DNA of 37,964 nucleotides from Prevotella sp. (GTDB lineage: Bacteria; Bacteroidota; Bacteroidia; Bacteroidales; Bacteroidaceae): NCBI GenBank assembly GCA_017460515.1, contig JAFUAY010000034.1, positions 1-37,964 on the forward strand, given 5' to 3'. Made by a program: the position numbers and the translations under genes. Shown in pieces: positions 4,056 to 23,909 of this stretch; the stretch's first letter is position 1, and each line of letters opens with the position of its first letter. Under the pieces are notes generated by a model, which was not told where the DNA came from, searched no databases, and saw only the letters and a list, made by a program, of their open reading frames with translations.

Positions 4056-4090
4056 TGTCGTTATATCGTTATTTCGTTATTACGTTGTTA
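4056..4090 (-). repeat. Four-copy octamer repeat between proA and argF'
   Basis: On the plus strand the gap reads CGTTATAT, CGTTATTT, CGTTATTA, CGTTGTTA in tandem (about 4059-4090), four imperfect 8-nt units filling the whole proA-argF' spacer and touching the proA stop. Function is unknown. Confidence 0.6.
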
Positions 4091-5275
4091 GGGTCTTGTT
4101 TGGCCATTTCCTTCAATGAGCCATTTGTAGGTGCAAATCTCCTCGAGCGCCATGGGACCTCGTGGGCCAAGCTTTTGCGTGGAGATGCCAATCTCAGCAC
4201 CCAATCCGAACTGCGCACCATCAGTAAATGAGGTAGGCGCGTTCCAATAGACGCAGGCAGCATCCACCATCTGTTGGAACTTGCGGGCGGCAACTTCGTT
4301 CTCGGTGACGATAGCCTCGCTGTGTCCGCTGCCGTGACGGTCGATATGGTCGATAGCCTCTTCCAGCGAACTGACGGTTACCACATTCATCTTGTAGTCC
4401 ATAAACTCAGTGTCGTAGCGGTTCTCATCGTTGAAGAAAAGCTCAACCTTTCCTTTCATCGGAGCCAGCAGCTCGTTGAGGTCGCCCTCCCTGTCTTTGT
4501 GGATGAGGAGTGTGTCGAGTGCATTGCATACACTGACGCGGCGAGTCTTGGCATTGTTGATGATGGCACGACCTTTCTCCAGGTCTCCATCTTTGTCGAA
4601 ATAGACGTGCACCACGCCAGCTCCTGTCTCTATGACTGGTACACGGGCAGTATCGCGCACGAAATCGATGAGCTTGCGCCCGCCACGGGGTATGCAAAGG
4701 TCGATATAACCTACGGCATTTAGCATCTCGCCAGTAGCCTCGTGGGTAGCGGGGAGCAGTGCCACGACATCTTTAGAGATGTTGTATTTCTCAAGCACCT
4801 CGTGAATCAATGCCACCTCTTCGCGATTCGAGCAGTCGGCATCTTTGCCACCTTTCAGCACGCAGGCATTACCGCTCTTGAAACAGAGCGAGAAAACATC
4901 GAAGGTCACGTTGGGACGAGCCTCGTAGATCATACCGATAACGCCGAATGGTACGCTCACACGACAGAGTCGAAGACCGTTCGGCAGTGTCTTTTGCTTG
5001 GTGATATGACCAAGTGGTGAGGGTAGGGTGGCAACGTTGCGCATGTCGCCAGCGATACCTTCCAGTCGACTGTCGGTTAGTTGCAGTCGGTCGTACAGCG
5101 GATTAGCCTTGTCCATCTTGGCCAAGTCTTCGCCATTGGCTTTCAGTATGCGCTCCTTGTTGTTGATGATGGCATCTGCCACCGCCAGCAGTATCTCGTT
5201 GCGCTGACTGTCGCTGAGCAGTCCCAGACTCTTGCTGGCACGTTTCACTTGTTTGAAAGTTTCCTCTAGTTGCAT
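4088..5275 (-). CDS. proA: Gamma-glutamyl phosphate reductase (glutamate-5-semialdehyde dehydrogenase)
   Basis: This enzyme performs the second step of proline synthesis, reducing gamma-glutamyl phosphate to glutamate-5-semialdehyde with NADPH. Family motifs include [33 protein letters not shown], quoted here as [13 protein letters not shown] then ACVLKGG, the IPRGGRKLI segment, and the catalytic-cysteine region [13 protein letters not shown] (Cys about 249). I chose the ATG at 5275 ([11 protein letters not shown], 395 residues), which matches the usual N-terminus. An in-frame ATG at 5299 adds eight residues and would overlap the upstream HTH gene. Its partner proB lies 13 kb away, across the surface-protein module. 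The start is 4 bp after the regulator gene, so it may be co-transcribed with it. Confidence 0.95.
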
Positions 5276-5279
5276 TGCT

Positions 5280-5624
5280 TTATTCTGTTTTATTGGCATA
5301 TTGTGCCGGTGTCATTCCTGTCTGTTTACGGAACACGTTTTGGAAATAGCTTCGACTGCTGAAACCGCACATCTGTGCAATTGTGTCGTTCGACCAGTCG
5401 GGGTGTTGGTTCAGTAGTCGTTTTGCTTCTTCTATTCTCAGGTTGGTTAGCCAGGGGTTAAACAGTTCCTGTTCAGTTGTCTTGAGCCAGCTTGTTAGCT
5501 GATGTCGGGATATATGTATTTCCTCAGCGGCTGTCTGGATGGTGATACCGCTTTGCTTGTATCTCCCTTTATCCACCCATGTCATGACTGCCTGTTCTAT
5601 TCGTTTCCGCTCCTCTTCATTCAT
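5280..5624 (-). CDS. AraC-family DNA-binding domain protein (3' half of a split 7-TM regulator)
   Basis: This 114-residue protein consists almost entirely of an AraC/XylS double helix-turn-helix. The first HTH includes [21 protein letters not shown] (residues about 27-47); the second includes [33 protein letters not shown] (about 77-109), with the canonical G-F-S-S-x-S-Y-F-x-x-x-F-x-x-x-x-G-x-T-P-x-x-Y pattern. There is no sensor domain of its own. Its ATG overlaps the stop of the upstream membrane protein as ATGA. Adding one base to the A7 tract just before the junction fuses both into one 371-residue protein. It could be translationally coupled, expressed by slippage, or a frameshift mutant. 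Confidence 0.8.
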
Positions 5625-6394
5625 GTTTTTTTCTCTCTCTCTTCCATTACGACATTCTGATCATCGTTATCCTCGGCAATCGTTATTTGCTGTTGGTCAT
5701 TGCTTACCCCGTAGCATATAAAACTGAAGATGCAATAATACATGCTGAGGAAGATAAACAGTGAATAGCAGGTCAGTAACGGACCAGAGGCAAAAATCGT
5801 AAACGGAACGAACAGTCCCGACAGCGAAAGCAGGCCTACACTATGTTCCATCCACTTCAACAAGTCGCTCTTATCGTGGTCGTAAAAGTTGTTCAGAGCC
5901 CGATGAATTCGACGAAATTCGTGAAAATTCAGTCCACAGTAGTAAAACTGCATGAGGGAATAGATGGTGGCCGCAGCGTACTCTCCCATTCTCATTTGCG
6001 GGGTATCATCGAGTGGTGTGTGTCCGTTCATAAGTCCTCCGATGAGTAGTACGGCAACCATCACGATATAGCCGACAATGCCGATTGTCCATTCTTGTCT
6101 TGATATTTTGCCGTTTCGCAAGAGGTAGAGCACACCTAATGACATTTGCCAAGCGCATGGCACGAAGAAAAGCAGATTGACAAATACACCCTGTGTGACC
6201 CCCATTGCCCGGAAATGAAGTGTATATTGCAGGAGAAACTGTACGAAGAGCAGACTGGTGGCTCCGGCCATGAGCCAGCGTGCACGGCTGAACACCGTGC
6301 CCATAGCTGTTCGCATGGGTAAGAGGAATGCTAGGGTGAGCGTGAGCAGTGCCATCGTTAGCATTCCGCCATATTGTGTCTCTTCTATATTCAT
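5621..6394 (-). CDS. Seven-TM-like membrane sensor (5' half of a split AraC-type regulator)
   Basis: From the ATG at 6394 (MNIEETQYGG) this gives 257 residues with about seven hydrophobic segments. Landmarks are VFSRARWLMAG after TM1, HFRAMG after TM2, a charged loop with FHEFRRIHRALNNFYDHDKSDLLKWMEH (split here: FHEFRRIHRALNN, then LLKWMEH) before the last two helices, and a charged cytoplasmic tail ending EEREKKT. An upstream in-frame ATG at 6481 adds 29 atypical residues and would run through the operator repeats, so I reject it. The fold is unnamed to me. Position and the one-base fusion with the HTH gene suggest the input half of a membrane-bound AraC-type one-component regulator. It resembles the protein at 17689-18444. 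Confidence 0.72.
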   Translation of the reverse strand: MNIEETQYGGMLTMALLTLTLAFLLPMRTAMGTVFSRARWLMAGATSLLFVQFLLQYTLHFRAMGVTQGVFVNLLFFVPCAWQMSLGVLYLLRNGKISRQEWTIGIVGYIVMVAVLLIGGLMNGHTPLDDTPQMRMGEYAAATIYSLMQFYYCGLNFHEFRRIHRALNNFYDHDKSDLLKWMEHSVGLLSLSGLFVPFTIFASGPLLTCYSLFIFLSMYYCIFSFICYGVSNDQQQITIAEDNDDQNVVMEEREKKT

Positions 6395-6401
6395 ATGGGT
6401 G

Positions 6402-6409
6402 CAAAGGTA
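6402..6409 (-). promoter_or_regulatory. Candidate -7 box for the split regulator
   Basis: On the minus strand this reads TACCTTTG, a full match to the Bacteroidetes -7 consensus TAnnTTTG. It is only 7 bp from the ATG at 6394, so the transcript would be leaderless or nearly so, unless translation begins at a later in-frame ATG (6364, MLTMALL). I see no clear -33 TTTG. Confidence 0.5.
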
Positions 6410-6439
6410 AGTATTTTTCTGAAAAAATGATGAAAAAGG

Positions 6440-6518
6440 GTGTGTAAAAATGTAGTAATTGACGATTTTTACACACATCATTTCTTCATTTTACACACCA
6501 TTGCGTGTTTTTTTACAC
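6440..6518. promoter_or_regulatory. Operator array: four TTTTACAC boxes in the divergent promoter region
   Basis: TTTTACAC occurs on the plus strand at 6467-6474, 6489-6496 and 6511-6518, each start exactly 22 bp from the last. A fourth copy in the opposite orientation (GTGTAAAA, 6442-6449) makes a perfect 12-bp inverted repeat with the first (6440-6451 and 6465-6476, 13-bp spacer). Direct repeats about two helical turns apart are what AraC-family proteins typically bind. The array lies between the minus-strand regulator and the plus-strand surface-protein operon, with the last box about 20 bp upstream of the operon's -7 box. That the neighbouring HTH protein binds here is inference. Confidence 0.7.
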
Positions 6519-6538
6519 TTTTGTTAGTGCTTTCTTTC

Positions 6539-6546
6539 TAGTTTTG
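6539..6546 (+). promoter_or_regulatory. -7 box of the surface-protein operon
   Basis: TAGTTTTG matches TAnnTTTG exactly and is followed by CATCG. A TTTG at 6520-6523 is only 15 bp upstream, closer than the usual 19-21 bp for a -33 element. A poor -33 spacing plus an upstream direct-repeat array fits an activator-dependent promoter. The leader to the first ATG at 6632 would be roughly 80 nt. Confidence 0.6.
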
Positions 6547-6631
6547 CATCGCAAACAAGGACCATAGCCACTTTCAGGATAGGGAACAGAGTGTTTCCAA
6601 GAGTATTGATCATAAACATAAACCATTATAA

Positions 6632-7852
6632 ATGACAACAAAAACATTATCTATTAGTATGCTGCTTGCCAGTATGCTATTGTTGATGGGCACGAACCAA
6701 GCTCTTGCCTGGGACAGTACACCTGATGACAGTGGCCTGTACGACGGACTGTACGACCGTCCTACTTATTTCCCCAATTGGGAGCAGCCTTCTACATGGC
6801 CCAACGCCATGTACTATCTGTGTGATGTACGTTTGGCTGATGCCACTGGCCCTCAATTAACTAGTTATGAGATTGCCGTCTATGATTAAAACGATGTGTT
6901 GCGTCATTGTAGTCGTAGTATTCCTAAGGATGACAACCGTTGTGTGCTCACTATCCGTGGTGTAGAGGGCGACAAGTTTCATTTTAAGGTCGTCTATGGT
7001 GATGACTTCATGAACCCAGTGATTGTAGACATTCCAGAGAAGACGGTTCCGTTTCTGACAAACGATTTGGTTGGAACACCTGATGATCCGTTCCTGCTCA
7101 TCATCCCAAGCCGAACTGTTCTTGACGAGAAGTCGACAGCGTTACCTGTAAGTAAACAGGATGTAGACGTCACGGTCTTGCGTACTATTAAAGGAGGCGA
7201 ATGGAGTACAATCTGCCTCCCCTTTGCCATTCCTGCTGATAAGATGGAGACCACCTTCGGAGCCGGAGTGGAGTTGGCTGACTTCATGGGCTGTGAGACT
7301 ACCTATGAAACAGATGGAGAAACAGTCAAGAGTATCAATGTGAAATTCAGCTCTGTTACAGCTATCGAAGCTAATCATCCTTATATTATAAAGGTACGCG
7401 AGAACCTAACGCGACTTGATGTTGACCATGTAGATATCATTGCCTTAGGGCAGGACGTGGAGGCTGCAGTAGAGTGTGACGAGTATACTGAGAAGATAAA
7501 AAACAAGACTTATTATTTTTACAACCGTTTTGTAGGCAACTATGCGAATGGCTTCACTGTTCCCAATCAGACCCTTTTCCTCTGTGGTGGAAAATTCTGG
7601 TATTCAGTTGGTCAGACACATATGATGGCCTTCCGTGCCTACTTCGACTTCTACGATATGTTGCCAGAGCCCAGTTTCAATGATGCGAATTCCCGAATCA
7701 TGATTGTTATTGACGATGTACCTACTGATATTAACAGTGTGAACCAGATAATAAAGTGTGACCACCGCTATTATGACTTGCAGGGACGTATGACCACAAA
7801 TCCCTCTAAAGGTCTTTTTATCTGTAGTGGTCGTAAATATTTAATCAAGTAA
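6632..7852 (+). pseudogene. Secreted surface protein with YDLQGR tail, interrupted by an in-frame TAA
   Basis: One reading frame runs 6632-7852 and is broken only by TAA at 6887-6889; the flanking segments (85 and 318 residues from the next ATG) are in the same frame. The context reads EIAVYD-stop-NDVLRHCSRS, so a single C-to-T change from CAA (Gln) would explain it. Read through, the product has 406 residues: a signal peptide (hydrophobic core SMLLASMLLLMG, cleavage near ALA/WD), a central domain with GGEWSTICLPFAIPADKM, and a C-terminal YYDLQGRMTTNPSKGLF ending in SGRKYLIK. That tail is typical of secreted Prevotella proteins and may be a sorting signal. Function is unknown. It is the first gene of the operon. 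It could be a true pseudogene, a readthrough gene or a base error. Confidence 0.75.
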
Positions 7853-7859
7853 GAAAGAG

Positions 7860-8057
7860 ATGACAAAGAAAAAATATATTTCTCCGGCAGTTAGAATTAC
7901 AGCTGTCCAGACTGTGGGATTCATTTGCCAATCCGGTGTAGGATCCATGTATCATGACATTCCCTATGCAGGTGTTGATGAGAACGGTACACTGACGCCA
8001 AGCGGTCGTCGACATGAAGATCTTTGGGAAGACACTGAAGAGGAAGAAGACTATTAA
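7860..8057 (+). CDS. Small protein with basic N-terminus and acidic tail
   Basis: A 65-residue ORF lies 7 bp after the interrupted gene and 52 bp before the giant gene, so it is very likely co-transcribed. The first part, MTKKKYISPAVRITAVQTVG followed by FICQSG, resembles small Prevotella and Bacteroides proteins that begin KKYI.P...... and then diverge. The tail is extremely acidic (WEDTEEEEDY). There is one cysteine (in FICQSG) and no membrane helix or classical signal peptide. A role as a processed peptide, a chaperone-like partner of its neighbours or a secreted factor is speculative. Its conserved-looking start and tight placement argue that it is real. Confidence 0.65.
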   Translation: MTKKKYISPAVRITAVQTVGFICQSGVGSMYHDIPYAGVDENGTLTPSGRRHEDLWEDTEEEEDY

Positions 8058-8109
8058 GAAAATATTCTATACATCAGTTTAAATTTTAACCATTAAACAA
8101 ACCATTTTT

Positions 8110-11100
8110 ATGGAACAACGAAAATTTTTACTCAACTGGCGGCACGTGCCAATAGCGGTGCGGCTGCATGAACGACTAAAGGCGTTTAGTCTGCTACGGC
8201 TATGCCTGCTGGTCATGCTTCTTGGCTGGTCGTCAAGCACTTTTGCTTGGTACGAACCTGAGTTCAAGGACAAAGAGACTTCTGTCGACATTAGCGGACG
8301 TCTCCATTACAAGTTCGTGTTCAAGTTCTTTAATTTGGACGGCGACAACTACGAATGGGGCCAGTCAACTTATCTGAAGGTCGATGGCTACAGTGTTTGT
8401 AAGCTGAATGATCTCACCAGCGTCATTGGTAGCAATAATGAAAAAACGGTCAAGAAATTTACCGACGACAATTGCGGTAAGGTTGTAGCCACTAAGCAGT
8501 GTAATATTTCTGGTGTGACAAACATCTATGTGAGCATTGGCAATCCTTACAGATCAGGTAAAGACTTCTTTATGGAGTGCGATGTCTGCATTGAGCGTAA
8601 TTACACGGGCAAGACCTGGACAATTGGCTTCAGTGGCTACTGGCATTATAACAATGGCGGCGGTCACTCAGTCAATGAGACAGTCTTCACTAGTAGCGCA
8701 CCATCGGTGTCAATGCCTTCTATTAACAGCAACAACTTCAAGCGCAGCAACAAGAAGATTAATTTCACCTATCCCAGCATTTCAAGCACCTACTCGGGAT
8801 GGTCCAACCAGGCCATTTTGTACAAGGAGGACAATAAGAACAAGTGGAAAGATCCTGCCTATGCTTTCGGCACCTATACCTCAAATGGGTCGTTCGACGT
8901 GAGCGATAACTACACCCCTGTGACCATCTATCCACGCTTTGAGTACTATAAGAACAATGCCACCGTCTCTGCTTGGGGGCACTCGAATGTCGTACGCTTC
9001 GACAAGGATGTCGATGCCATTACTATTCAGGGACAACCCAAGCCGAAGAACCTGCAGGTGTCGGGCTCAAACAGTTACAGCAAGCATGTAACCCTTTCGT
9101 GGGAGCGTGATGCTTACGACTCGAATTCGGCTACCAACGGTAAATGGATTATCTATCGTAAGGTGACAGGAAACGCCTCTTCACAGATTAAGTTAGGAGA
9201 TGTGCCCAACAATACCTACTCCTATACTGACACGAAGGCCGACCTGACATATGAGACCTCCTATACCTACACCGTGTGCTATCAGCCTAACGGATGGTCA
9301 ATCAATAGTGAGGCAGATGCTGACGGTCTGAGTGCTTTCAAGAGACATACACTGAAACGTGACTTCGCCTTCACCAAGGTGAATGCCGAGGTGCAGGATG
9401 GCAAGATTACGTTCTCTTGGACCCACAACTCCATTCAGGATGCCAGCAACTCGAAGACTTATAAGCTCTATGTGCAGCGCAGTGCTGACGAAGGCAAGAC
9501 GTGGTCCGACCTGCGTACTGACAACATTACCAGTACTTCGACAACCAGCGGTAGTTATACCGATGCTGACCTGCAAACTCATAGGCCCTACCAGTATCGT
9601 CTGAAAATCAATGTGCAGGATCAGGATGTCTATAGTACCGTGAAGAGCGCAACCGTTAGCAATGGCTCGTCGCTGACAGGCTTCTCAGCTTCTCGTGGTA
9701 ACTACAGCACATCTGTGAAACTATCGTGGACAGTTAATCAGGTAGGTACAGAACCTGCCTACTTCACCTTGCAGCGTCGTCCCTTGGGCAGCACCAACGA
9801 GAGTCTTTGGGCCGACATCTACACCACTTCTGGTACGTCTAGCAACTATAGCTACGATGACAATACGGCTCAGCCCGGCTCGTTCAACGAATATCGTCTG
9901 AAAATTTTCGATATTTACAATGGTAAGCGCTACGAAGGCACTGCCAAGGAAACTGACGGTTTCTGTCTGGCAACGGGTGTAGTAAGCGGTCGTATTACCT
10001 ACGGCTCTGGTACAGCAGTCGAAGGGGCCAAGATCACTCTGGGCTCAACCAATGCCGATGGTGAGGCCATCAAGAGCAATCGCTCATTGAAGTTCGATGC
10101 CACTCCCGGACAGGGCTTGAAGTGCTATTTGGGCCGTGATGAAATGAAGAACCTGTTTGGCGGCGACTTCACCCTGCAGATGTGGGTGAACCCCGACACG
10201 CTGAACAACATGAATAGTGGAGCAAACAAGATCCTGTTCGATGTGAAAAACACGTTTACAGTTAGTTTGATCAAGTCGGGCGATGGACAGTTCCTCATCA
10301 AAAACTATATTAACGGCAACAACCGTTGGTTTAATAGTAATGTGATACCTGGTGGCAAATGGACACACCTGACGTTTGTCTATTCTAACAAAAGCCTGAA
10401 AATCAGAGTGCGTCAGAACGACCAAGGCTGGAAATATGCAGCTACGCTCAATCATGCTGTTGATACCACCAAATTGGCAGGTAGCGATGGCTTCGTCATT
10501 GCCAATTCTGTAGATATGAACTGGAGTGAACTCTATGCAGGATGGGTTGATGAAGTCCGCCTGTTCAACCGTGCGTTGACCGATGCAGAGATTGTCAAGA
10601 ACTTCAACCACACCCTGAATGGTTCAGAGGAAGGGTTGCTGGCCTATTACCCGTTAGATGAAGGATTGGCTAACCAGACCATTGCCTACGACTTCAGCAG
10701 GCAGAATGGTGTGAGCAACGCTCACCACGCCATTGCCAACATAGCTGCTCATTCTGATAAAGATGTTGTACCCAGCGATGCGCAGCTGAGCTTGATGACT
10801 TATACTGACAAGGATGGTAACTACATGTTGCGCGGCATTCCCTTCTCGGGCGAAGGCACCAACTACACCATCACGCCAACCTTAGGCATACACAAGTTCA
10901 ATCCCGGCAACGAGAGTCGCTTCTTCAACCTGAACTCACTGTCTTATTCTGGTGTGAACTTTGAAGACGTGTCATCGTTCCCAGTGAGCGGTGTAGTCTA
11001 TTTCGATGGTACTACGATTCCTGTGCAGGATGCTATGATATACGTCGACGGCAACCTGGCCGCCAAGGACGGTGAGGCAGTGAAGACCAATGCCAGTGGC

Positions 11101-14100
11101 GAATTCAAGGTCGATGTCCCCATCGGCGACCACTTCATCCAGGTGAAGAAGAACGGCCATACCTTTGTCAACAATGGTCGCTATCCTGAAGACCCTGACA
11201 GCGTGGGCACCCGCTTTACCTTTGAGGCTGAGAAGCCCGGTCTGACTTTCTACGACAACACTCGCGTAACAGTGGCTGGTCGTGTGGCTTGTGGTGATGT
11301 TGAATATAATAAGCCTCTCGGCCTACATGCAGGTAACGCCAATATCGGTAAGGCCGTGCTGACATTGACCTACGCCAACGACGACAAGAGCTATATCAAC
11401 GCCTTGGAAACTAAGGTGGGAACTTTGGTCAAATACAGTCAGAGCACAAAGCAACGTGACTTCGATGCCACGACATCAAATGTGAACAGTAAGGCATACG
11501 TTACGGGTGGTAAGAACAAGATTACCATTGAGACCGACCCTGAAACGGGTGAATGGGCTGCCGAGCTGCTACCACTGAAATATACGGTGGAGAGCGTGAG
11601 AATTCCCGCTCAGGAGAATGATATTACCTTCACTAATCTGCCCGACATTGACGCTACGAACCCGCAACGTCAGAGCACTGACTCGCTGGATGATGAAGAG
11701 TTTAAGTATGTTGCAAGTGCTAAGATTGAGTATAAGACCAAGAGCACTATTGACCTGATTGAGAATGAGGATGGCTCATTTGGAGAAAAGAGCATCAAGG
11801 TGACTGGTCTTGACGGAAACACGGAAGTAGTGCCCCTCTATACCGTTAGTGGTAAGACTGTCAGCTATAAGTTCGGTTATCCTGTCTATCAGGAGATGGG
11901 TTCCTATACCTATTATCTGCATGCCTATGAGCGTTATTTGAACAAGGACGACAAAAACAATGTGGTTGAGGATATTGTTCCTCTGGGCAACAAGACGGTG
12001 AAGATTGAGAACCAGTATGCTACAGGCGTGAGCGTCAATCTTGAAAACGGTACAGTTGTCGAGGGCAACGAGAAGGAATTCGAGCTTGACTCACTGGGTT
12101 GTCTTACCTATACGTTCACTGCTGGTCTGCCCAACATCCAGGCGCCTTACACGCGTGGCATCTCAATTGCCTACGAAGATAACGGCACGATGATTCAATG
12201 GGATGGCAACGAGACCTTCAAGACTATTGTACTTGGCGCTATCTCTACCGGAAATAACTTTACCACTCAGGCCCCCGACCAGGTGCTGATGGTGCTGCGT
12301 GACCCCCCAGGAACAGGTTCAAGCACTACCTTCTCAAAGGGTACTACCCATACGGAAGAGGGTACGCTGAATGTTACTGCCAAGTTGGGTGGTAAGCTGG
12401 AGGCTTTTGTCAATGCTGCTATGCAGATTAAGACAGCCAACGGTGTAGGTGTAGCTGTCATCACTGAAACGAACCTTAGCGGACAGACAGGCGGTAGCTT
12501 CGAGGCAAGTACTTCTGTAGGTACAAACAACTCTTGGAGTCATACCACCACACTGACCGAGGATATAACAACCAGCACCGAAGGCGACTTCGTAGGCGCT
12601 CCTGGTGACTTGTTTATCGGTGTATCGAAGAATACCATCTTCGGAACCTGCCACATCGTGAAGGTGAAGAAGGATGAGGCTAATTCTACAGACCAGAACC
12701 CCATCTACAACCTCGTGATGGAAGACGGATTCTCTACAGGCGACCAGTTCGGTACTACGTTTATCCATTCGCAGAACTATATTGAGGGTGTGCTGATTCC
12801 CAACTTCGAGAAACTGCGCGACAGCCTCCTCGTCGTTGTTGCTGATCCAAGCAAGGTGGCTCATCCTGCTGCTGGCAAGGATCCCGTCTATGTGACAACA
12901 CTGAGCAAGGACGATCCCAAGTTCGGTACAAACAATGCCGATAAGACTGTTTGGGGCATGAATGCTAAGAGCATGGCGCTGGGTACCGATGAAAACGGTA
13001 TTTTCCGTGGTCCTTCCTACTGGATTATCCTGCCCGCCGACTGGAAGACTTCCGGCAAGGCTTATCAGGATATGGTGCAGTTCTACAATGAGCAGATCAA
13101 AGGCTGGAAGAAACAACTGGCCCGCAACGAGGAGGCTAAAGTGTTGGCTATCACCAATCGTGATGAATACCTCATCGACAACTACTCATTTGATGCAGGC
13201 GGCTCGCTGACCCGCACCACTGAGGATATACATTCCGACTCTCACTCTTTTGAGTTCAGTGAGGAGACACAGGTGCTCTTCTCTGATGGTGCCAAGATGG
13301 ATCAGGATGGTAATGGATTCGAGATGAAATACGAGATCTACTCGAACCAGAACGCTACGACAACCTATGTGAACAGCGACGAGAAGACCACTGGCTTCAG
13401 CTTCACTTTGGCAGAGAGCGGTGACGATGACTACCTGTCAGTCGATGTGTTCGAGGCTCCTGACGATTTCGGTCCTATCTTCTATACCCGTGGAGGCGCT
13501 ACGTCTTGTCCTTACGAGGATGAGGTAAAGACTCAGTACTATGAGCCGGGAAAAATCATCTCTGAGAAGACTGTACAGATAGAGAAGCCTGAGATTGAGG
13601 CCAATACACAGATTCTAACAGGTATTCCTGCTGGCGGCAAGGGTACGTTCCAGGTATACATCCGCAATAACTCGGATACTTCTGAGGACGGTATGTATAA
13701 TATTAATGTGGTGCCCACTTCTAACCCCGACGGTCTGGTGGTGAAGATGGATGGTTTGAACATCACTACCGGTCGTGCCATCATGGTTCCTGCCGGTTCG
13801 CCCATGCTGAAGACGTTCACTGTGGAACAGTCGAACCCCGATGTGTTGAACTATGAGGATATCAAGATTCGCATCTCTTCACAGTGTCAGCCAGACAATA
13901 CCGGTGTGTTCCCTGAGATTGCAGACACAACTACAATCAGTGTCTACTTCCAGCCTACATGTTCTGATGTGAAGCTTGCTTCATCACATAGCCTGGTCAA
14001 TACTGACACTGAGACTGCACAGACACTGAGCATCAGCGGCTATAATTACTCGATGGCTTCACTGACAGGCATTCGCCTGCAGTACAAGGGCCTGAACGAT

Positions 14101-17100
14101 GCAGACTTCAAGACTCTGCAGGAATACTCTAAGGATGAGAAGAAGGTGGCTGCCGATGAGAACCTGAAACTACTGCCTGCACTGTCAGGAACCGATAAGT
14201 TGAACTTCATCATCGACCTGCGTAAGGAGGAATTCAGTGACCAGACCTACGTGTTCCGTGCCATCACAGTATGCATGCAAGGTGGCGTTGAGGTCAACAA
14301 TGAGAGCGAGGAAATTGAGGTTGTTCGTGATATGACGCGCCCGATGCTGATTGCTACCCCGACACCGACGAGCGGTATCCTGACCAGCGGAGGTGATATG
14401 ACCATCACCTTCAACGAGGATATCAAGAGCGGTAGCCTCTCGAAGCCTAACAACTTCGATGTGGTAGGTGTGATGAACGAGACTGAAGTTGTTCATGAGG
14501 TTGCACTGAGCCTGACAGGTGAGAATACCGTCAAGACCCAGAATACCGTTGACCTGACAGACAAGTCGTTCTCAACCAGCATGTGGCTGAACTACGCTAA
14601 TGACGGTACGCTGCTGCAGCATGGCACCAGCACCAACAACTTCACCGTGGCTATTGAGGGCGGCAAGCTCGCTGTCACCGTGGCCGGACAGAAGGTTACT
14701 TCTACTGAGACACTTCCCGTGGGTAAGTGGATGTATCTGAACGTAAGCTACGATGCTTCAACCAAGACCGTCAGTGCCGACTATCTAAAAGATGCTGCAG
14801 AAGTATCGCTGATCAGCAATGCCGACGTGCCCGCTTATGAGGGTAATGGTCCTGTCAGCCTGGGTGGTAACAATCTCAACGCCAAGGTTCAGGAGTTGGC
14901 CATCTGGAACAGTGCACGTTCCGTAGCTGAGGCGCAGGCAGACATGTACACTACCAAGAGTCAGTACACCAACGGTCTGTTAGGCTACTGGCAGTTTAAT
15001 GAGGGTCATGGTGACGTAGCTACCGATAAGGCTCGCAGTCGCAATATGACGCTGCCTTCTGAGAATGCCTGGTGGATTGCCGGAGATAACTATGCACTCG
15101 TACTTGATGGTACTAAGGCTGCTGCTGCCAGTATCGGTGCACTGAACACCACCGATTCTGAGGACTACCTCGTTGAGGCTTGGTTCAAGGCCGATAAGGA
15201 GCAGAATGGTGTGGCTTCTGTGCTGAGCACACAGGTGATGGACCTTCGCTTGAATGCTGAAGGCAAGATGGAAATCGCACTCGGTGGTTCTACTGCTGAG
15301 GTTATGAATGCTGACCTGCGCGACGGACAGTGGCACCATGTGGCCGTGAATGTTCTGAAGGGCACCAACGGCTCAGGTATCATCTATGTTGACGGACAGC
15401 AGCGCAAGCAGATGGCAGCTTCGGCTATGCCCGCCCTCTATGGTGAGAAGCTGATGCTGGGTAGCCATCGCAACAGTGTTGATGGTCAGGGCCTCTACAG
15501 TTATGACCAGATGCTGAAGGGTGCTATCGATGAGGTGCGTATCTGGAAGGCTCGCCGCACAGCCGATGTCATCAAGAATAATATGTTTAACCGCGTGAAG
15601 GCTGATGAGTCGGGTCTGGTAGGCTACTATCCGATGGAGCGTCTGGGACTTGACCAGTACAATCAGGTAGTGACCACGTCTAACATGACTGATGCTACCA
15701 AGAAGGATGCAGGCGAACTGGTGTTCTTCACAGCAGGTGCTGCTGCGACGACAGGTACTACAAGCAGTGCAAACACAGCCGCTCTGAAGACGGCTCCAAG
15801 CATGACTAACGTTCAGTTCGACTTCGTGGCCAGCGAGCGTCAGATCAAGGTGAATCTGACTGAACAGCCCTACAAACTGGAAGGTAGCAATATCTATATC
15901 ACTGCCAAGAGCGTGAAGGATATCCACGGCAACTCGGCTAATCCTATCACATGGGGTGTCTATGTACAGCAGAACAACCTGAAGTGGCAGGAGTCTGAGT
16001 TGGCAGTCGAGAAGGCTGGCTCTGAAGAGATGACCTTCACCGCAGTGATTGAGAACCGTGGTTCTGAGAGCGAGTCCTGGAGCCTGAGTGGTATGCCATC
16101 ATGGTTGAATGCCGATACAGAGGCCGGTGTGCTGATGCCGCTCACCAAGCAGACACTGACCTTCACCGTGGCAGAGAGCTTGCCTATCGGTAACTATGAG
16201 ACCACCGTTTACCTGACTGGTTCACAGAATATTGGTGCTCCGCTGAACATCACTGTGGAGAGCGAGGGTGATGCTCCCGACTGGACAGCTACACCTGGCG
16301 AGAATACCATGACCGTGATTGGACAGTTGAAGATTGACAACGTGTTGAGCAATGATACAAAGGATATGGTAGCTGCCTTCCGTGGCACCGAGTGCGTGGG
16401 TGTGGCTCATCCTAAGTATTTCGCTCGCTACGATGCCTATATGGTGATGATGAACATCTACGGTAAGGAGAATGCCGACCTGACCTATAAGGCTTATGAT
16501 GCCAGCACAGGTACTGTTTATCCTTCAGTAAGTGTGAACAACGAAAGCGCTTATGCATTTGTAGCCGATAAGTCTATCGGTTCGTTTGGCCAGCCTGTGA
16601 CCTTCACTCCGCTGAACGAGATTGAACAGGATCTGTCAATGAACCGCAGTGGATGGAAATGGTTCTCACTGTATGCTAAGCCCAAGGTGAACAGTCCCAG
16701 CGTAGTGTTTAAGGACGCCCTGAGTGCCATCCAGATGATGACCGACGGTGCCAATACTCTGATCAACTGGAATGGTGGTCTGACAGCCTTTGCTTACGAC
16801 AAGATGTATAAGTTGAACAGCACCTCTGCATTTGTAGAGAATATGGTTGGTGAACCAACTCAAGTAGCTGATATCACCATCACTCTGAACAGCGGTTGGA
16901 GTTGGATTGGTTATCCTTGTCAGTCAAGCAACTCACTGGATGCAGCCTTTGCCAGTGCCGAACCGAAGGAGGGCGATATGGTTAAGAACCAGTCAAGCTT
17001 TGCCGTTTATACAGATGGCGAATGGGTTGGAACGCTGACCTCACTGCAACCAGGCGATGGTTATATGTATAGCAATACGGTAGCCAAGAAGACGTTCAGC

Positions 17101-17595
17101 TTCCCGAAGCCTGTCGTGAGTGGTAAGAAGAGGGTAGGCAAGGCCCGTGTTGCCGAGCTACTGCCCCTTGCCTCTGAGAGCAACATGACCATGATTGCTG
17201 TGGTGATGAATGGCGATGAGGTTGTTGAGGATGCCGAAATAAGCGTGTATGCAGGCACTGAACTGTGTGGTTGTTCGACTGAGGCCGTACGCAACGGTCA
17301 GCACTTCATTACCATTGGCGGTAAGAAGGACGAGGCCAGTGTGCTGAACTTCGTTGTTCGTACGGAGAATGGTGAGTTCTACCTGCAGCAGCAAGACCTG
17401 TTTGAGGCCGATGCCGTTCGTGGAACCGTGGCTCAGCCCTACGTATTGCGGTTGAGTGATGAGCTGGGTATTGACCTTCATACTGCCGATGCAGCTGGTC
17501 AGAAACTTTATGACCTGCAGGGACGTAAGGTGAACAGTGCTCAGGTGAAGAAGGGCGTTTATGTCAGCAAAGGCCAAAAAGTCGTTGTGAAGTAA
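8110..17595 (+). CDS. Giant secreted LamG/FN3 surface protein (3161 residues)
   Basis: The N-terminus is a signal peptide with an unusually long basic stretch before LLRLCLLVMLLGW and likely cleavage after STFA (about residue 46). Domains by rough position: three FN3-like modules (about 305-396, 419-518, 521-617); a carboxypeptidase-regulatory-like segment (621-657); a LamG/concanavalin-like domain (658-848, with WVDEVRLFNRALTDAEI); another regulatory-like segment (956-1020); a central region with RDPPGTGS (about 1397) and SxT-rich strands; a CARDB-like part (1839-1950); an Ig-like part (2077-2133); two further LamG domains (2134-2321 and 2326-2511, the latter with GAIDEVRIWKARRTADVI); a late Ig/BACON-like stretch (2630-2737); and a C-terminal LYDLQGRKVNS...VVVK tail. 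It probably acts outside the cell in adhesion or glycan binding; no catalytic motif is visible. It appears intact and is followed by a terminator. Confidence 0.85.
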   Translation: MEQRKFLLNWRHVPIAVRLHERLKAFSLLRLCLLVMLLGWSSSTFAWYEPEFKDKETSVDISGRLHYKFVFKFFNLDGDNYEWGQSTYLKVDGYSVCKLNDLTSVIGSNNEKTVKKFTDDNCGKVVATKQCNISGVTNIYVSIGNPYRSGKDFFMECDVCIERNYTGKTWTIGFSGYWHYNNGGGHSVNETVFTSSAPSVSMPSINSNNFKRSNKKINFTYPSISSTYSGWSNQAILYKEDNKNKWKDPAYAFGTYTSNGSFDVSDNYTPVTIYPRFEYYKNNATVSAWGHSNVVRFDKDVDAITIQGQPKPKNLQVSGSNSYSKHVTLSWERDAYDSNSATNGKWIIYRKVTGNASSQIKLGDVPNNTYSYTDTKADLTYETSYTYTVCYQPNGWSINSEADADGLSAFKRHTLKRDFAFTKVNAEVQDGKITFSWTHNSIQDASNSKTYKLYVQRSADEGKTWSDLRTDNITSTSTTSGSYTDADLQTHRPYQYRLKINVQDQDVYSTVKSATVSNGSSLTGFSASRGNYSTSVKLSWTVNQVGTEPAYFTLQRRPLGSTNESLWADIYTTSGTSSNYSYDDNTAQPGSFNEYRLKIFDIYNGKRYEGTAKETDGFCLATGVVSGRITYGSGTAVEGAKITLGSTNADGEAIKSNRSLKFDATPGQGLKCYLGRDEMKNLFGGDFTLQMWVNPDTLNNMNSGANKILFDVKNTFTVSLIKSGDGQFLIKNYINGNNRWFNSNVIPGGKWTHLTFVYSNKSLKIRVRQNDQGWKYAATLNHAVDTTKLAGSDGFVIANSVDMNWSELYAGWVDEVRLFNRALTDAEIVKNFNHTLNGSEEGLLAYYPLDEGLANQTIAYDFSRQNGVSNAHHAIANIAAHSDKDVVPSDAQLSLMTYTDKDGNYMLRGIPFSGEGTNYTITPTLGIHKFNPGNESRFFNLNSLSYSGVNFEDVSSFPVSGVVYFDGTTIPVQDAMIYVDGNLAAKDGEAVKTNASGEFKVDVPIGDHFIQVKKNGHTFVNNGRYPEDPDSVGTRFTFEAEKPGLTFYDNTRVTVAGRVACGDVEYNKPLGLHAGNANIGKAVLTLTYANDDKSYINALETKVGTLVKYSQSTKQRDFDATTSNVNSKAYVTGGKNKITIETDPETGEWAAELLPLKYTVESVRIPAQENDITFTNLPDIDATNPQRQSTDSLDDEEFKYVASAKIEYKTKSTIDLIENEDGSFGEKSIKVTGLDGNTEVVPLYTVSGKTVSYKFGYPVYQEMGSYTYYLHAYERYLNKDDKNNVVEDIVPLGNKTVKIENQYATGVSVNLENGTVVEGNEKEFELDSLGCLTYTFTAGLPNIQAPYTRGISIAYEDNGTMIQWDGNETFKTIVLGAISTGNNFTTQAPDQVLMVLRDPPGTGSSTTFSKGTTHTEEGTLNVTAKLGGKLEAFVNAAMQIKTANGVGVAVITETNLSGQTGGSFEASTSVGTNNSWSHTTTLTEDITTSTEGDFVGAPGDLFIGVSKNTIFGTCHIVKVKKDEANSTDQNPIYNLVMEDGFSTGDQFGTTFIHSQNYIEGVLIPNFEKLRDSLLVVVADPSKVAHPAAGKDPVYVTTLSKDDPKFGTNNADKTVWGMNAKSMALGTDENGIFRGPSYWIILPADWKTSGKAYQDMVQFYNEQIKGWKKQLARNEEAKVLAITNRDEYLIDNYSFDAGGSLTRTTEDIHSDSHSFEFSEETQVLFSDGAKMDQDGNGFEMKYEIYSNQNATTTYVNSDEKTTGFSFTLAESGDDDYLSVDVFEAPDDFGPIFYTRGGATSCPYEDEVKTQYYEPGKIISEKTVQIEKPEIEANTQILTGIPAGGKGTFQVYIRNNSDTSEDGMYNINVVPTSNPDGLVVKMDGLNITTGRAIMVPAGSPMLKTFTVEQSNPDVLNYEDIKIRISSQCQPDNTGVFPEIADTTTISVYFQPTCSDVKLASSHSLVNTDTETAQTLSISGYNYSMASLTGIRLQYKGLNDADFKTLQEYSKDEKKVAADENLKLLPALSGTDKLNFIIDLRKEEFSDQTYVFRAITVCMQGGVEVNNESEEIEVVRDMTRPMLIATPTPTSGILTSGGDMTITFNEDIKSGSLSKPNNFDVVGVMNETEVVHEVALSLTGENTVKTQNTVDLTDKSFSTSMWLNYANDGTLLQHGTSTNNFTVAIEGGKLAVTVAGQKVTSTETLPVGKWMYLNVSYDASTKTVSADYLKDAAEVSLISNADVPAYEGNGPVSLGGNNLNAKVQELAIWNSARSVAEAQADMYTTKSQYTNGLLGYWQFNEGHGDVATDKARSRNMTLPSENAWWIAGDNYALVLDGTKAAAASIGALNTTDSEDYLVEAWFKADKEQNGVASVLSTQVMDLRLNAEGKMEIALGGSTAEVMNADLRDGQWHHVAVNVLKGTNGSGIIYVDGQQRKQMAASAMPALYGEKLMLGSHRNSVDGQGLYSYDQMLKGAIDEVRIWKARRTADVIKNNMFNRVKADESGLVGYYPMERLGLDQYNQVVTTSNMTDATKKDAGELVFFTAGAAATTGTTSSANTAALKTAPSMTNVQFDFVASERQIKVNLTEQPYKLEGSNIYITAKSVKDIHGNSANPITWGVYVQQNNLKWQESELAVEKAGSEEMTFTAVIENRGSESESWSLSGMPSWLNADTEAGVLMPLTKQTLTFTVAESLPIGNYETTVYLTGSQNIGAPLNITVESEGDAPDWTATPGENTMTVIGQLKIDNVLSNDTKDMVAAFRGTECVGVAHPKYFARYDAYMVMMNIYGKENADLTYKAYDASTGTVYPSVSVNNESAYAFVADKSIGSFGQPVTFTPLNEIEQDLSMNRSGWKWFSLYAKPKVNSPSVVFKDALSAIQMMTDGANTLINWNGGLTAFAYDKMYKLNSTSAFVENMVGEPTQVADITITLNSGWSWIGYPCQSSNSLDAAFASAEPKEGDMVKNQSSFAVYTDGEWVGTLTSLQPGDGYMYSNTVAKKTFSFPKPVVSGKKRVGKARVAELLPLASESNMTMIAVVMNGDEVVEDAEISVYAGTELCGCSTEAVRNGQHFITIGGKKDEASVLNFVVRTENGEFYLQQQDLFEADAVRGTVAQPYVLRLSDELGIDLHTADAAGQKLYDLQGRKVNSAQVKKGVYVSKGQKVVVK

Positions 17596-17617: not shown

Positions 17618-17677
17618 GAAGCAAGGTGTGTAAGATAGGAATGCCTGTGTTTTCACACCTTGCTTCTTTCTTTTTAA
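17618..17677 (+). terminator. Strong intrinsic terminator after the giant gene
   Basis: A perfect 13-bp inverted repeat, GAAGCAAGGTGTG (17618-17630) and CACACCTTGCTTC (17654-17666), encloses a 23-nt loop and is followed by TTTCTTTTT. It begins 23 bp after the stop of the giant gene. The next gene's longest possible start (17626) lies inside the first arm, an argument against that start. Confidence 0.9.
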
Positions 17678-17688
17678 AACAACGAATC

Positions 17689-18444
17689 ATGGAGAATGAA
17701 CTATACCATTCAGTACTTGTGTTGGGAGGAATTGCAAATCTTTCCATGACCCTTGTGTTACTGCATGGTAACTTGGCTTACAGTGAGTATACGGTTTATC
17801 GCAGAGCCCGTCGCCTGGTAGCACTGTGTTTTGCTGTCTTTGCCGTTGGCTTCCTGATCCATGCTCATTTCCAATGGCGCTATTCATGGCCCGCTGCTGC
17901 ATCAGCCTTGTCGGTTGGCTATTTCCATATTGGCGGTGTACTCTTTGGATGGAGCCACACATCGTTGCTCAATCCTGGTTATCTTTCCAGAAAAGTCGTT
18001 GTGCGCGACCTCTCCATATTGGCTATCGGCTTAATCTGTTATGGGCTTAGTGCTTTTGGGGTATTAGGTCTCGGTAGCTCTGTCTTTGCTGTTTTCTTTG
18101 CTCACGCCCTGTTTATCACGTATTGGTTCTATCACACTTATTACAGGGTGAAACACCGTCTTCTGGAAATGTCGTTAGGCTCTATTGAGCATTTCGTCCA
18201 CTGGATGCTGCTTTCTTGCCACCTGATTATCGGTTTTGGTATTGGCAGCATTGTGATTACCGCCAGTCTTCCTACGCTCGTCTGGCCTTATACGGTCCTG
18301 CTTTCAGTAGGTATTCTGGTGTTTGTCTATATTTTCTTCTCTCTGAACGACTTCGGAAACTTTATCGATTCAGCTACGAACGCTACTGAGGATGTTGAAA
18401 GACAGTGTGAGGCGTTGTCTCTGGGTGATCGATCAAGTCAATGA
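17689..18444 (+). CDS. Seven-TM membrane protein, sensor-only paralogue of the split regulator
   Basis: From ATG 17689 (MENELYHSVL) this is a 251-residue protein with about seven hydrophobic helices. It lines up by eye with the membrane protein at 5621-6394: VYRRARRLVAL against VFSRARWLMAG after TM1, then VHWMLLSCHLI against LKWMEHSVGLL before the last helices, and a final VFVYIFFSL helix. No HTH domain follows, and the tail ends SLGDRSSQ. A longer start at 17626 is rejected because it lies in the terminator. I see no TAnnTTTG promoter between terminator and ATG, so expression may rely on readthrough. Its last 62 bp overlap the end of proB convergently. Possible roles are a decoy or accessory sensor, or a decayed regulator that lost its output domain. 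Confidence 0.65.
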   Translation: MENELYHSVLVLGGIANLSMTLVLLHGNLAYSEYTVYRRARRLVALCFAVFAVGFLIHAHFQWRYSWPAAASALSVGYFHIGGVLFGWSHTSLLNPGYLSRKVVVRDLSILAIGLICYGLSAFGVLGLGSSVFAVFFAHALFITYWFYHTYYRVKHRLLEMSLGSIEHFVHWMLLSCHLIIGFGIGSIVITASLPTLVWPYTVLLSVGILVFVYIFFSLNDFGNFIDSATNATEDVERQCEALSLGDRSSQ

Positions 18445-19156
18445 GGATGTTTTCGCGTTTGCCGTTGGCAATAATCACACGGATGCCTGCAGCCTGAATC
18501 TTCGAGGCTGTAGCATATTTCGACTGCATGCCACCTCGTCCTGCTGAACTCTTTTCTGTCTGTATGTATTGTGACAAGTCGGTGCCAGGTGCAACCTCAC
18601 TGATGAGTTGTGAGGCAGGGTCGGCAGGATTGCCCGTGTAGATGCCGTCAATGTTGGATAGAAGTACGAGCGTGTCGGCCTTCATCATCTGTGCGATGAG
18701 GCCGCTCAGCTCGTCGTTATCTGTAAACATCAGCTCGGTGACGCTGACCGTATCGTTCTCGTTGACGATGGGCAAAACGCCGTTCTCCAACATCACCCGC
18801 ATGCAGGCCTGTTGATTACTGTACTGTTCGCCGGGTTGGAAGTTCTCTTTCATGGTGAGCACCTGACCCACATGGATGTGATACTCGCGAAACAGGTCGT
18901 AGTAGAGACCGATGAGCTTGGCCTGTCCTAATGCAGAGAACAGCTGTCGCTGCTCTACAGAGTCAAGCTCGTGTTCAACCTTCAGCTCACGGCGCCCGCA
19001 GGCCACGGCACCTGATGATACCAGGATGACTTCATAGTCCTTGGCGCGAAGCCAGGCTATCTGGTCGACCAAAGCCGACATGCGCGTCACATCGAGTCGT
19101 CCGTCAGGACGTGTCAATGCGTTGGAACCTATCTTTACTACGATTCTTTTCTTCAT
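18383..19156 (-). CDS. proB: Glutamate 5-kinase without PUA domain
   Basis: First enzyme of proline synthesis, phosphorylating glutamate with ATP to gamma-glutamyl phosphate. This 257-residue protein starts KKRIVVKIGSNALTRPDGRL and contains VILVSSGAVACG, PIVNENDTVSVTEL, TDNDELSG and NIDGIYTGNPA, all standard for the amino-acid kinase fold of ProB. The E. coli enzyme (about 367 residues) carries a C-terminal PUA domain that is absent here. ProB is usually feedback-inhibited by proline, and loss of PUA need not remove that. It follows the acyl-CoA ligase by 50 bp on the same strand. Its natural partner proA lies beyond the surface-protein module. The 3' end overlaps the convergent membrane-protein gene by 62 bp. 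Confidence 0.95.
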   Translation of the reverse strand: MKKRIVVKIGSNALTRPDGRLDVTRMSALVDQIAWLRAKDYEVILVSSGAVACGRRELKVEHELDSVEQRQLFSALGQAKLIGLYYDLFREYHIHVGQVLTMKENFQPGEQYSNQQACMRVMLENGVLPIVNENDTVSVTELMFTDNDELSGLIAQMMKADTLVLLSNIDGIYTGNPADPASQLISEVAPGTDLSQYIQTEKSSAGRGGMQSKYATASKIQAAGIRVIIANGKRENILIDLIDHPETTPHTVFQHPQ

Positions 19157-22248: not shown

Positions 22249-22278
22249 GCTCAAATCTTAATTCTCAATTCTCAAATC
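22249..22278 (-). repeat. Heptamer repeat at the argD-proC junction
   Basis: The plus strand reads TCAAATC, TTAATTC, TCAATTC, TCAAATC in tandem: four degenerate 7-nt units between the proC start and the argD stop, running a few bases into argD. It belongs to the same class of operon-gap repeat as 21445-21467. Confidence 0.6.
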
Positions 22279-23414
22279 TCTTCGGGCTTCACTCTGATCA
22301 GTCTCTCTATAAAGTCGTCAGCCTCTGCTTTCGTGAGACAGAGGGGCGGCAACAGGCGCAGAATATTCTGACCAGCACAACCGGTGAAGCAGTGTTCATG
22401 CTTGATGAGCGGCTTACGCACCATGGCGTGAGGCATGTCGAGTTCAATGCCAATCATGAGACCGCGACCGCGCACATCCTTGATATGTGAGCTGCCAATA
22501 TTGCGGATGCCCTCCATCAGGTAGTCGCCTACAACGCGGGCATTCTCTACCAACCCCTCGTCTTCAAAGACGTCGAGAACGGCAAGAGCTGCAGCACAAG
22601 CCAGATGGTTGCCACCAAACGTGGTACCCAGTTGTCCGTAGACGGGTTCAAACTCAGGCGAAATCAGTACACCGCTCATCGGGAAGCCGTTGGCAATGCC
22701 CTTGGCCACGGTGATAATGTCGGGCTTGATGCCCAGCCACTGGTGAGCAAAGAACTTACCGCTACGACCATATCCGCACTGAATCTCATCACAGATAAGC
22801 GTGGCATGATAGCGCTTGCAGGCGTAAGCCAGCTTCTGGGCAAATTCGGGAGTTGCCATCTGGACACCGCCGACACCCTGAATGCACTCCAGGATGACAG
22901 CCGATACGCCGCCGCGAGAGAGCTCGCGAATCCAAGGCTCCACATCGTTCAGCGGCAGGAAGCGCACGTGGTGATTATCGTTGATGGGGGCAACGATCTT
23001 CGGATTGTGGGTCACCTCTACGGCCAATGATGTACGACCGTGGAAGGCTTTCTCACATGACAGTATTCGCGTAGCAGAGGGATTCTTGAACGAAGCGAGT
23101 TTCAGCGCATTCTCGTTGGCCTCTGCACCACTGTTAACCAGAAACAGCTGATAGTCGTCGTAGCCGCTAATCTTGCCTAGTCGCTCTGCCAACTCCACCT
23201 GCAGTTTGTTAATAACGGAGTTGGAGTAGAATCCAATCTTGTTAAGCTGTTCGGTCACCTTCTCTATATAATGAGGGTGAGAATGACCGATACTGATGAC
23301 GGCATGTCCACCATAGAGGTCCAGGTATTCCTGACCTTTGTCGTCCCAAACTTTACAGCCTTTGCCTTTGACGATGTTTACGTCGAACAGCGGGTATACG
23401 TCGAATAGTTTCAT
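22272..23414 (-). CDS. argD: N-acylornithine aminotransferase (probably succinylornithine-forming)
   Basis: This 380-residue class III PLP aminotransferase interconverts N-acylglutamate semialdehyde and N-acylornithine, using glutamate as amino donor. It shows VNSGAEANENALKLASF for cofactor phosphate binding, CDEIQCGYGRSGKFFAHQ with the PLP-contacting Asp, and ITVAKGIANGFPMSG with the Schiff-base lysine. Because the downstream carbamoyltransferase is of the succinylornithine type, the natural substrate is probably the succinylated intermediate; this is inference. It has its own TAnnTTTG promoter and is the first gene of the second metabolic block, separated from argC by 10.5 kb of surface-protein genes. 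Confidence 0.94.
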   Translation of the reverse strand: MKLFDVYPLFDVNIVKGKGCKVWDDKGQEYLDLYGGHAVISIGHSHPHYIEKVTEQLNKIGFYSNSVINKLQVELAERLGKISGYDDYQLFLVNSGAEANENALKLASFKNPSATRILSCEKAFHGRTSLAVEVTHNPKIVAPINDNHHVRFLPLNDVEPWIRELSRGGVSAVILECIQGVGGVQMATPEFAQKLAYACKRYHATLICDEIQCGYGRSGKFFAHQWLGIKPDIITVAKGIANGFPMSGVLISPEFEPVYGQLGTTFGGNHLACAAALAVLDVFEDEGLVENARVVGDYLMEGIRNIGSSHIKDVRGRGLMIGIELDMPHAMVRKPLIKHEHCFTGCAGQNILRLLPPLCLTKAEADDFIERLIRVKPEEI

Positions 23415-23777: not shown

Positions 23778-23909
23778 CTAAGAAATTAGACCGTAATCAC
23801 TTAGTTATTGGAGTACAGTTGCTAAGTGATTACGGTCTAAGTACTAAGTAATTGAAGTCTGATTGCTTAGTAATTGGAGGATAAATGCTCAGCTATTACC
23901 TAATAACGA
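23778..23909. repeat. Tandem array B: about six degenerate 22-bp units
   Basis: Units begin at 23778, 23800, 23822, 23844, 23866 and 23888. Each opens with CTAAG, CTTAG or CTCAG followed by an ATT-centred stretch (for example CTAAGTAATTG or CTTAGTAATTG); the remainder is variable. The period is exactly 22 bp, as in array A, but the sequence is unrelated. The last unit contains the stop codon (23896-23898) of the 2068-residue gene. Confidence 0.8.
23787..23839. repeat. Perfect 18-bp inverted repeat (hairpin) within array B
   Basis: TAGACCGTAATCACTTAG at 23787-23804 is the exact reverse complement of 23822-23839, with a 17-nt loop. It lies about 60 bp beyond the stop of the 2068-residue gene and could stabilise or terminate that transcript, although no U-run follows on the minus strand. 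Confidence 0.85.

Follow-up and report, generated by a model that had tools for sequence, protein, structure and literature searches.

Escherichia coli AraC is a soluble arabinose sensor, and its direct-repeat half-sites upstream of araBAD stand about two helical turns apart, the last by the -35 element. We analyzed a window of 37,964 nucleotides (contig C29; the draft genome measures 2.27 Mb and is 65% complete) from a Prevotella-like bacterium. It contains a cassette of about 13 kb, placed between two proline-synthesis genes, in which a regulator with a seven-transmembrane (7TM) domain and an AraC-type helix-turn-helix (HTH) faces the operon of a giant LamG/FN3 protein across an array of repeats. 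Judging from sequence comparisons, the cassette is probably a self-contained switch from membrane to promoter, in which a membrane-tethered one-component activator has a private operator. As in the E. coli system, direct repeats lie about two helical turns apart with the last beside the -35 region; unlike it, there are three direct repeats plus one inverted, and the predicted sensor is in the membrane.

The NCBIfam adjacent_YSIRK regulators and Streptococcus pyogenes Spy1337, the latter presumably AraC-type and divergent, are Gram-positive counterparts, and we know of no 7TM domain in them. They share with our regulator an AraC-type HTH, presumed for Spy1337, next to a surface protein gene; the gene beside Spy1337 is that of R28 (PMC7098570). 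The match to the YSIRK-adjacent regulator family (TIGR04094) reaches 41.1 bits against a cut-off of 200, and this assignment was rejected.

CadC/ToxR-type regulators are described as bitopic, the winged HTH being N-terminal and the sensor periplasmic (PMC5936718). Like them, relatives of the present regulator unite sensor, membrane part, and DNA-binding domain in a single polypeptide and have a neighboring operon as predicted target, but here there are seven helices and a C-terminal AraC HTH. Membership in the ToxR/CadC family needs a single helix and an N-terminal winged HTH and was rejected, the seven helices being those of a structure model. In the co-component pairs VtrA/VtrC and ToxR/ToxS, a membrane-tethered transcription factor and a second membrane protein come from the same locus, as in our cassette (PMC9214523). 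In contrast to these pairs, the cassette proteins have no periplasmic domains; the second protein, memB, is homologous to the regulator's membrane domain, is encoded by the target operon, and does not occur in many of the loci, and any heteromer is putative.

Microbial rhodopsins and G-protein-coupled receptors (GPCRs) gave no Foldseek match at E ≤ 0.001, and the cassette 7TM proteins differ from them in having neither demonstrated sequence kinship nor a fitting lysine in the seventh helix (TM7). This lysine is found in 0 of 14 memB members and 1 of 26 members of memA (the regulator's membrane domain), there at the first residue of the helix, and a retinal-binding rhodopsin was rejected. A literature search, with most subscription papers outside its coverage, found no paper on or name for a 7TM-AraC fusion in Bacteroidales. 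We regard the mechanism as a form of membrane one-component regulation, unnamed in the literature found.

The regulator and its operator array

The window encodes the regulator as two open reading frames (ORFs), memA and an HTH ORF, parted by a frameshift in the linker (Table 1). An AraC-type double HTH, as in the AraC/XylS family, is found in the window and in 26 of the 26 fused relatives scanned. Stretches fetched from relatives' genomes around matches to the regulator, memB, or the giant carry L-numbers (L034 and so on), and all tallies include related genomes that are not independent of one another. Membrane part and HTH are in frame, in one chain, in 38 of the 42 memA ORFs longer than 150 aa (the window plus 40 fetched stretches), and not in the split window copy. 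The first-pass annotation had named a membrane-bound AraC-type regulator and foreseen 7TM-AraC fusions: the fusion exists in relatives, and the HTH and hydrophobic ORFs are confirmed here, but as two frame-split ORFs. The regulator probably starts at 6394 rather than 6481, as relatives and the -7-like box just upstream suggest.

An AlphaFold2 model of the fused relative L074 has seven helices in memA. Loop-charge counts of the 7TM proteins do not settle topology; the regulator's C terminus would be cytoplasmic, given its DNA-binding domain. Assignment of memA to a known membrane-sensor family was rejected, as no Pfam membrane family matched more than 8 of the 26 fused members (YfhO, best E 0.039, among the 25 of 48 families listed). 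Single fused members match DUF3290 (5.2e-4) and SID-1 (6.2e-4).

Table 1. Features of the cassette and its flanking genes, in window positions.
Feature	Position	Strand	Remarks
proA	4088-5299		NCBIfam
AraC-type DNA-binding domain ORF, 114 aa	5280-5624	-	HTH_18 E 1.7e-19, HTH_AraC E 3e-13
memA, predicted seven-helix membrane domain of regulator	5621-6394	-	hydrophobic ORF open to 6481; predicted start
memA/HTH junction	5622-5632	-	4-nt ORF overlap and run of seven T (plus strand, 5626-5632)
-7-like box of regulator promoter	6402-6409	-	TACCTTTG
Operator repeat R4, inverted	6439-6448	+	GGTGTGTAAA
Operator repeat R3	6468-6477	-	
Operator repeat R2	6490-6499	-	GGTGTGTAAA
Operator repeat R1, closest to target promoter	6510-6519	-	AGTGTAAAAA
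-7-like box of target operon	6539-6546	+	TAGTTTTG
sec1, secreted-type gene, 406 codons	6632-7852	+	in-frame TAA at 6887-6889
65-aa peptide ORF	7860-8057	+	relatives L034 (49%), L051 (41%)
LamG/FN3 giant, 3161 aa	8110-17595	+	Laminin_G_3 E 1.9e-36 (3 stretches), fn3 (2 stretches)
memB, predicted second seven-helix membrane protein, without HTH	17626-18444	+	likely start 17689
proB	18383-19156		NCBIfam

Matches to memA at E ≤ 1e-10 occur in 45 of 200 genus genomes, own genome included. With the sensor profile at E ≤ 1e-8, 11 of 201 family genomes and 5 of 247 order genomes were hit (own genome counted in both). A sensor-only alignment scan of named genomes gave 34 loci, every one in a record whose title names Prevotella, Prevotellaceae, Bacteroidaceae, or Bacteroidales; the isolates Prevotella ruminicola KHT3 (L076, a fused copy with a full array) and Prevotella sp. 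khp7 have regulator loci. By these matches the regulator family is concentrated in Prevotella and scattered beyond. The two locus sets pooled for the tallies below overlap, and only exact duplicates over the last 300 residues were dropped (69 to 58).

Between the divergent genes, TTTACAC is found at 6512-6518, 6490-6496, and 6468-6474, and inverted GTGTAAA at 6442-6448. A motif-free search for three direct 10-mers 19-23 bp apart plus one inverted scores this array (6439-6519) at 54, against at most 39 in eight shuffles of the same region, so the operator array already noticed in the shared promoter region is real. The 42 regulator upstreams contain 46 copies of TTTACAC or its complement, where base shuffles would lead one to expect 2.6. 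At a threshold of 44, chosen after the shuffle scores were seen, arrays are present in 34 of these 42 upstreams versus 2 of 336 dinucleotide shuffles, in 46 of 59 non-redundant upstreams of an enlarged set, and in 12 of 288 control upstreams of other genes (window and L034-L073). One control, upstream of an aminotransferase gene at 22272-23414 on the minus strand of the window, has three-plus-one repeats scoring 48 and may be a chance match or another operator. Of 13 loci from later family and order searches, six have an array scoring 45-56 (L127-L131, L135), five score 35-42, and two are without upstream sequence.

Repeat steps are 20/22 bp in 37 of the 46 arrays; for the window array the script gives 22/22, and 20/22 is another register, read by eye. 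The distance from R1 to a divergent-side TANNTTTG box, which we take to be the -7-like consensus, is exactly 19 bp in 32 of 45 loci and 17-20 bp in 39 of 45, while in three it is 9-11 bp and in three there is no box within 60 bp. Toward the regulator, 21 of 45 loci have a TANNTTT[GC] box at a distance of 27-29 bp from R4. Neither intergenic promoter of the window has a TTTG-N18-21-TANNTTTG pair, as expected if the target promoter is without its own -33 element. A sigma-70 consensus scan of the intergenic region (4 matches, 1.0 expected) was not used. In the bacterium's own genome, the private pattern GTGTNNAA-N13-16-GTGTNNAA matches only this array (three overlapping matches) and one coding site, which falls inside the GH2 gene of a paralogous locus.

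Since R1 stands where the -33 element would be, we propose that binding activates the divergent operon. An array between two divergent promoters, with R1 where polymerase would bind, would also suit a repressor that blocks the operon at R1 and the -33 region until a signal arrives and represses its own gene from R4. We think a repressor unlikely: direct repeats that end at -33, without a normally spaced -33 box, resemble AraC-type activator sites.

For the activator we infer binding, activation over repression, topology, autoregulation, and insulation, as follows. The 7TM-AraC protein, a single chain in relatives and split here, would be anchored in the inner membrane, its HTH reaching into the cytoplasm, and meet a signal in or at the membrane, perhaps jointly with the related 7TM protein memB. 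A helical linker after TM7 would let HTH domains occupy the three direct repeats, and binding at R1 would activate sec1, the peptide gene, the LamG giant, and memB. Autoregulation may come from the inverted R4, which adjoins the promoter of the regulator itself. With the operator word matched to the second recognition helix, several cassettes could function side by side with no cross-talk.

Operator words and recognition helices

Operator words differ among members (GGTGTGTAAA, GGTGTTAAAA, and GGTGTATCTA, for example), with the bases after GGTGT varying between loci. Covariation with the regulator was analyzed in loci with an array score of at least 43 and a register score of at least 3.5 (46 of 59), from which sensors more than 80% identical were dropped, leaving 36. 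Core word distance correlates with distance in the second recognition helix (Mantel r 0.495), and the partial correlation controlling for the sensor and the rest of the HTH is 0.42 (p 0.0005, 2000 permutations); the rest of the HTH contributes 0.026 (p 0.38) and helix 1 nothing. Five array registers were shifted by hand, and the result holds without them (r 0.50, n 31), as it does in stricter subsets (r 0.33, n 27; r 0.38, n 18), all with p ≤ 0.0025.

Particular helix types go with particular bases. YFQ[RK]KF is paired with G at N1 in 14 of 14 loci and YFQT[VIT]F with A or T in 9 of 9; the exception, L077 (YFQTIF with G), was left out of the 36 as a near-duplicate. The types THF, AYF, TTL, and TVL have C at N3 in 6 of 6, and all 30 others have A. 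The nearest helix predicts N1 in 30 of 36 loci, versus 15 of 36 for the nearest sensor. This covariation of word and helix is indirect evidence that each regulator recognizes its own neighboring array.

Target operon, cargo, and memB

The segments 6632-6889 and 6896-7852 form one interrupted reading frame, sec1, that is uninterrupted in L034, L051, and L062. The small peptide gene that the first-pass annotation gave the operon is best taken as the ORF at 7860-8057, and 6632-6889 belongs to sec1. Small ORFs with a MxKKxY..P start and an acidic end recur beside large secreted genes (7860-8057; L034:5782-5964; L091:9481-9687; L098:7063-7257). The giant ORF divergent from the regulator, also in the first-pass annotation, stands on its Laminin_G_3 and fn3 matches, and blastp finds homologues in L034 (45%), L051 (53%), and L062 (53%). 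A sorting domain of the type IX secretion system (T9SS) was rejected, with no NCBIfam family matching the giant at E ≤ 1. The own genome encodes SprA_N, as do 28 of the 30 genomes searched, and T9SS export is thus still conceivable.

That annotation had also seen the switch as dedicated to one giant adhesin, which does not hold. A BLAST homologue of the giant, in some cases short or cut, faces at least 17 of 59 regulators, and at least 26 of 59 face such a homologue or a protein with a KGxYIxxGxK-type tail; both counts are lower bounds, as contigs end. Among 51 genus genomes with a giant match, only in five do a giant match and a memA match share a contig (at most three candidates per genome scored, lists compared by hand). 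Other cargo includes a histidine kinase (L038), an alkyl sulfatase operon (L040), a TPR-AraC protein (L048), DUF4114/DUF4842 proteins (L057, L065), and BspA-type repeats (L107), and the own-genome paralogue faces a GH2 enzyme. With other cargo and operator words recurring in it, the family looks like a reusable membrane-to-gene switch. Upstream of other giants, BLAST finds an AraC-type gene of another build in 5 of 13 stretches, three of them confirmed by Pfam; these 597-855-aa proteins (L141, L143, L144, L145, L146) are in some cases divergent from the giant and in some codirectional.

The memB protein has seven helices in an AlphaFold2 model and is a distant homologue of the memA membrane domain (hhalign probability 91.5, E 8.6e-7). 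Pfam gives nothing better than E 0.061 for 14 members. All 14 members examined share five invariant histidines (58, 80, 90, 139, and 178, numbered on the 251-aa form), and metal or heme binding is conceivable. Present in 24 of 59 loci (L061, with two regulators in one stretch, is counted twice), memB also co-occurs with memA: by hand count, 19 of the 25 genus genomes that match memB (two of these matches weak or partial) also have memA, versus 26 of 175 others. In L105 (1-9568) and L080 (1-4498) the memB reading frame continues into a LamG giant, a signal-like stretch separating the two; in L081 and L088 it continues into a further protein bearing a KGxY-type tail.

Away from memA, L112 is a fusion of a memB-type 7TM domain and a histidine kinase (HisKA, HATPase_c), and in L119 a histidine kinase follows such a domain. 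The fusions in L113-L115 resemble L112; for these and for L122 the histidine kinase label comes from C-terminal likeness to L112 and L119, the two scanned. The kinases fused or next to memB-type domains are of the TPR/HisKA type (L112-L115, L119, L122). Such kinases, and memA loci that face one (L038), would fit a classical two-component pair sensing the signal, with the membrane part a mere anchor or chaperone partner. We give this little credence, as the window cassette encodes no kinase and memA itself bears the HTH in relatives.

State of the window copy, genomic position, and implications

Several observations weigh against the proposed switch. Thirteen of the 59 regulator upstreams score below 44, and memB is absent from many fetched stretches, some of them ended by contig limits. 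The sensor retains a weak partial correlation with the core word once the helix is removed (0.158, p 0.027), the 18 strongest residue associations include 7 with positions outside the second recognition helix, and N2 is predicted by the helix in 10 of 36 loci and by the rest of the HTH in 19 of 36. The window copy is itself interrupted in two genes, in the regulator linker and in sec1, and may not work as in relatives with uninterrupted genes.

The two interruptions in one locus, together with an in-frame stop in the own-genome paralogue of the regulator locus, point to a decaying copy, with the switch defunct in this genome, the HTH set free by the frameshift, and the giant constitutive or silent. 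We rate such decay as a serious possibility at somewhat under even chances. The array and the 3161-codon giant are intact, and draft-assembly errors could account for the breaks. Decay would concern the window copy alone, not the family, and is compatible with an activator switch in the relatives.

Further regulator copies interrupted by a stop or frameshift are found in L042, L049, L053, and L083. SoxS and MarA are small activators, and the linker break might be functional if it freed an activator of this kind to lock the operon on, perhaps reversibly via the homopolymer. The HTH ORF opens with a start of its own that overlaps the membrane ORF, and in L049 the same linker bears an independent stop, with an HTH ORF after it. 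We nevertheless find this improbable: the breaks in L042, L053, and L083 lie elsewhere, two cases in the linker are no more than chance could give, and the homopolymer has just seven bases. A programmed frameshift at the linker was considered, with nothing found in its support.

In 26 of 28 other proA loci of the genus, proB adjoins proA on the same strand (25 less than 400 bp apart, one 486 bp), and in the remaining two proB is not within the flank of proA. Because these neighbors are separated here, the cassette looks like an insertion between proB and proA. We noticed no integration gene in the cassette, no dedicated search for such a gene or for scars having been made. Two more large genes stand amid arginine and proline synthesis genes: 23896-30102 encodes a 2068-aa protein with Big_5 and chitobiase C-terminal-like domains, and 30908-33748 a 946-aa protein with BspA-type LRR_5 repeats. 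The region seems to gather large surface-type genes.

The first-pass annotation had drawn the locus as 5280-17595. Its divergent layout and array are borne out, and its 3' limit falls too early, since memB belongs to the set. It had named loss of the neighborhood in relatives as evidence against its reading, and the neighborhood is kept. Overall, what it saw is mostly real and larger than described, and its interpretation is partly supported.

A broader picture is tentative, and we lean against it. In it, receptors of GPCR or rhodopsin fold would be fused to an AraC domain and would act together with a second 7TM homologue, one fused elsewhere to a histidine kinase; they would spread as insertable cassettes, with words and helices co-diverging, and many private switches would coexist. 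The cassette itself would give a major rumen and gut genus a one-protein route from membrane to promoter, with a target promoter that may be located by the constant spacing between array and -7-like box. The natural pairs of operator word and recognition helix would make AraC-type DNA specificity directly testable, and the 7TM sensor domain appears to recur with two outputs, AraC and histidine kinase.

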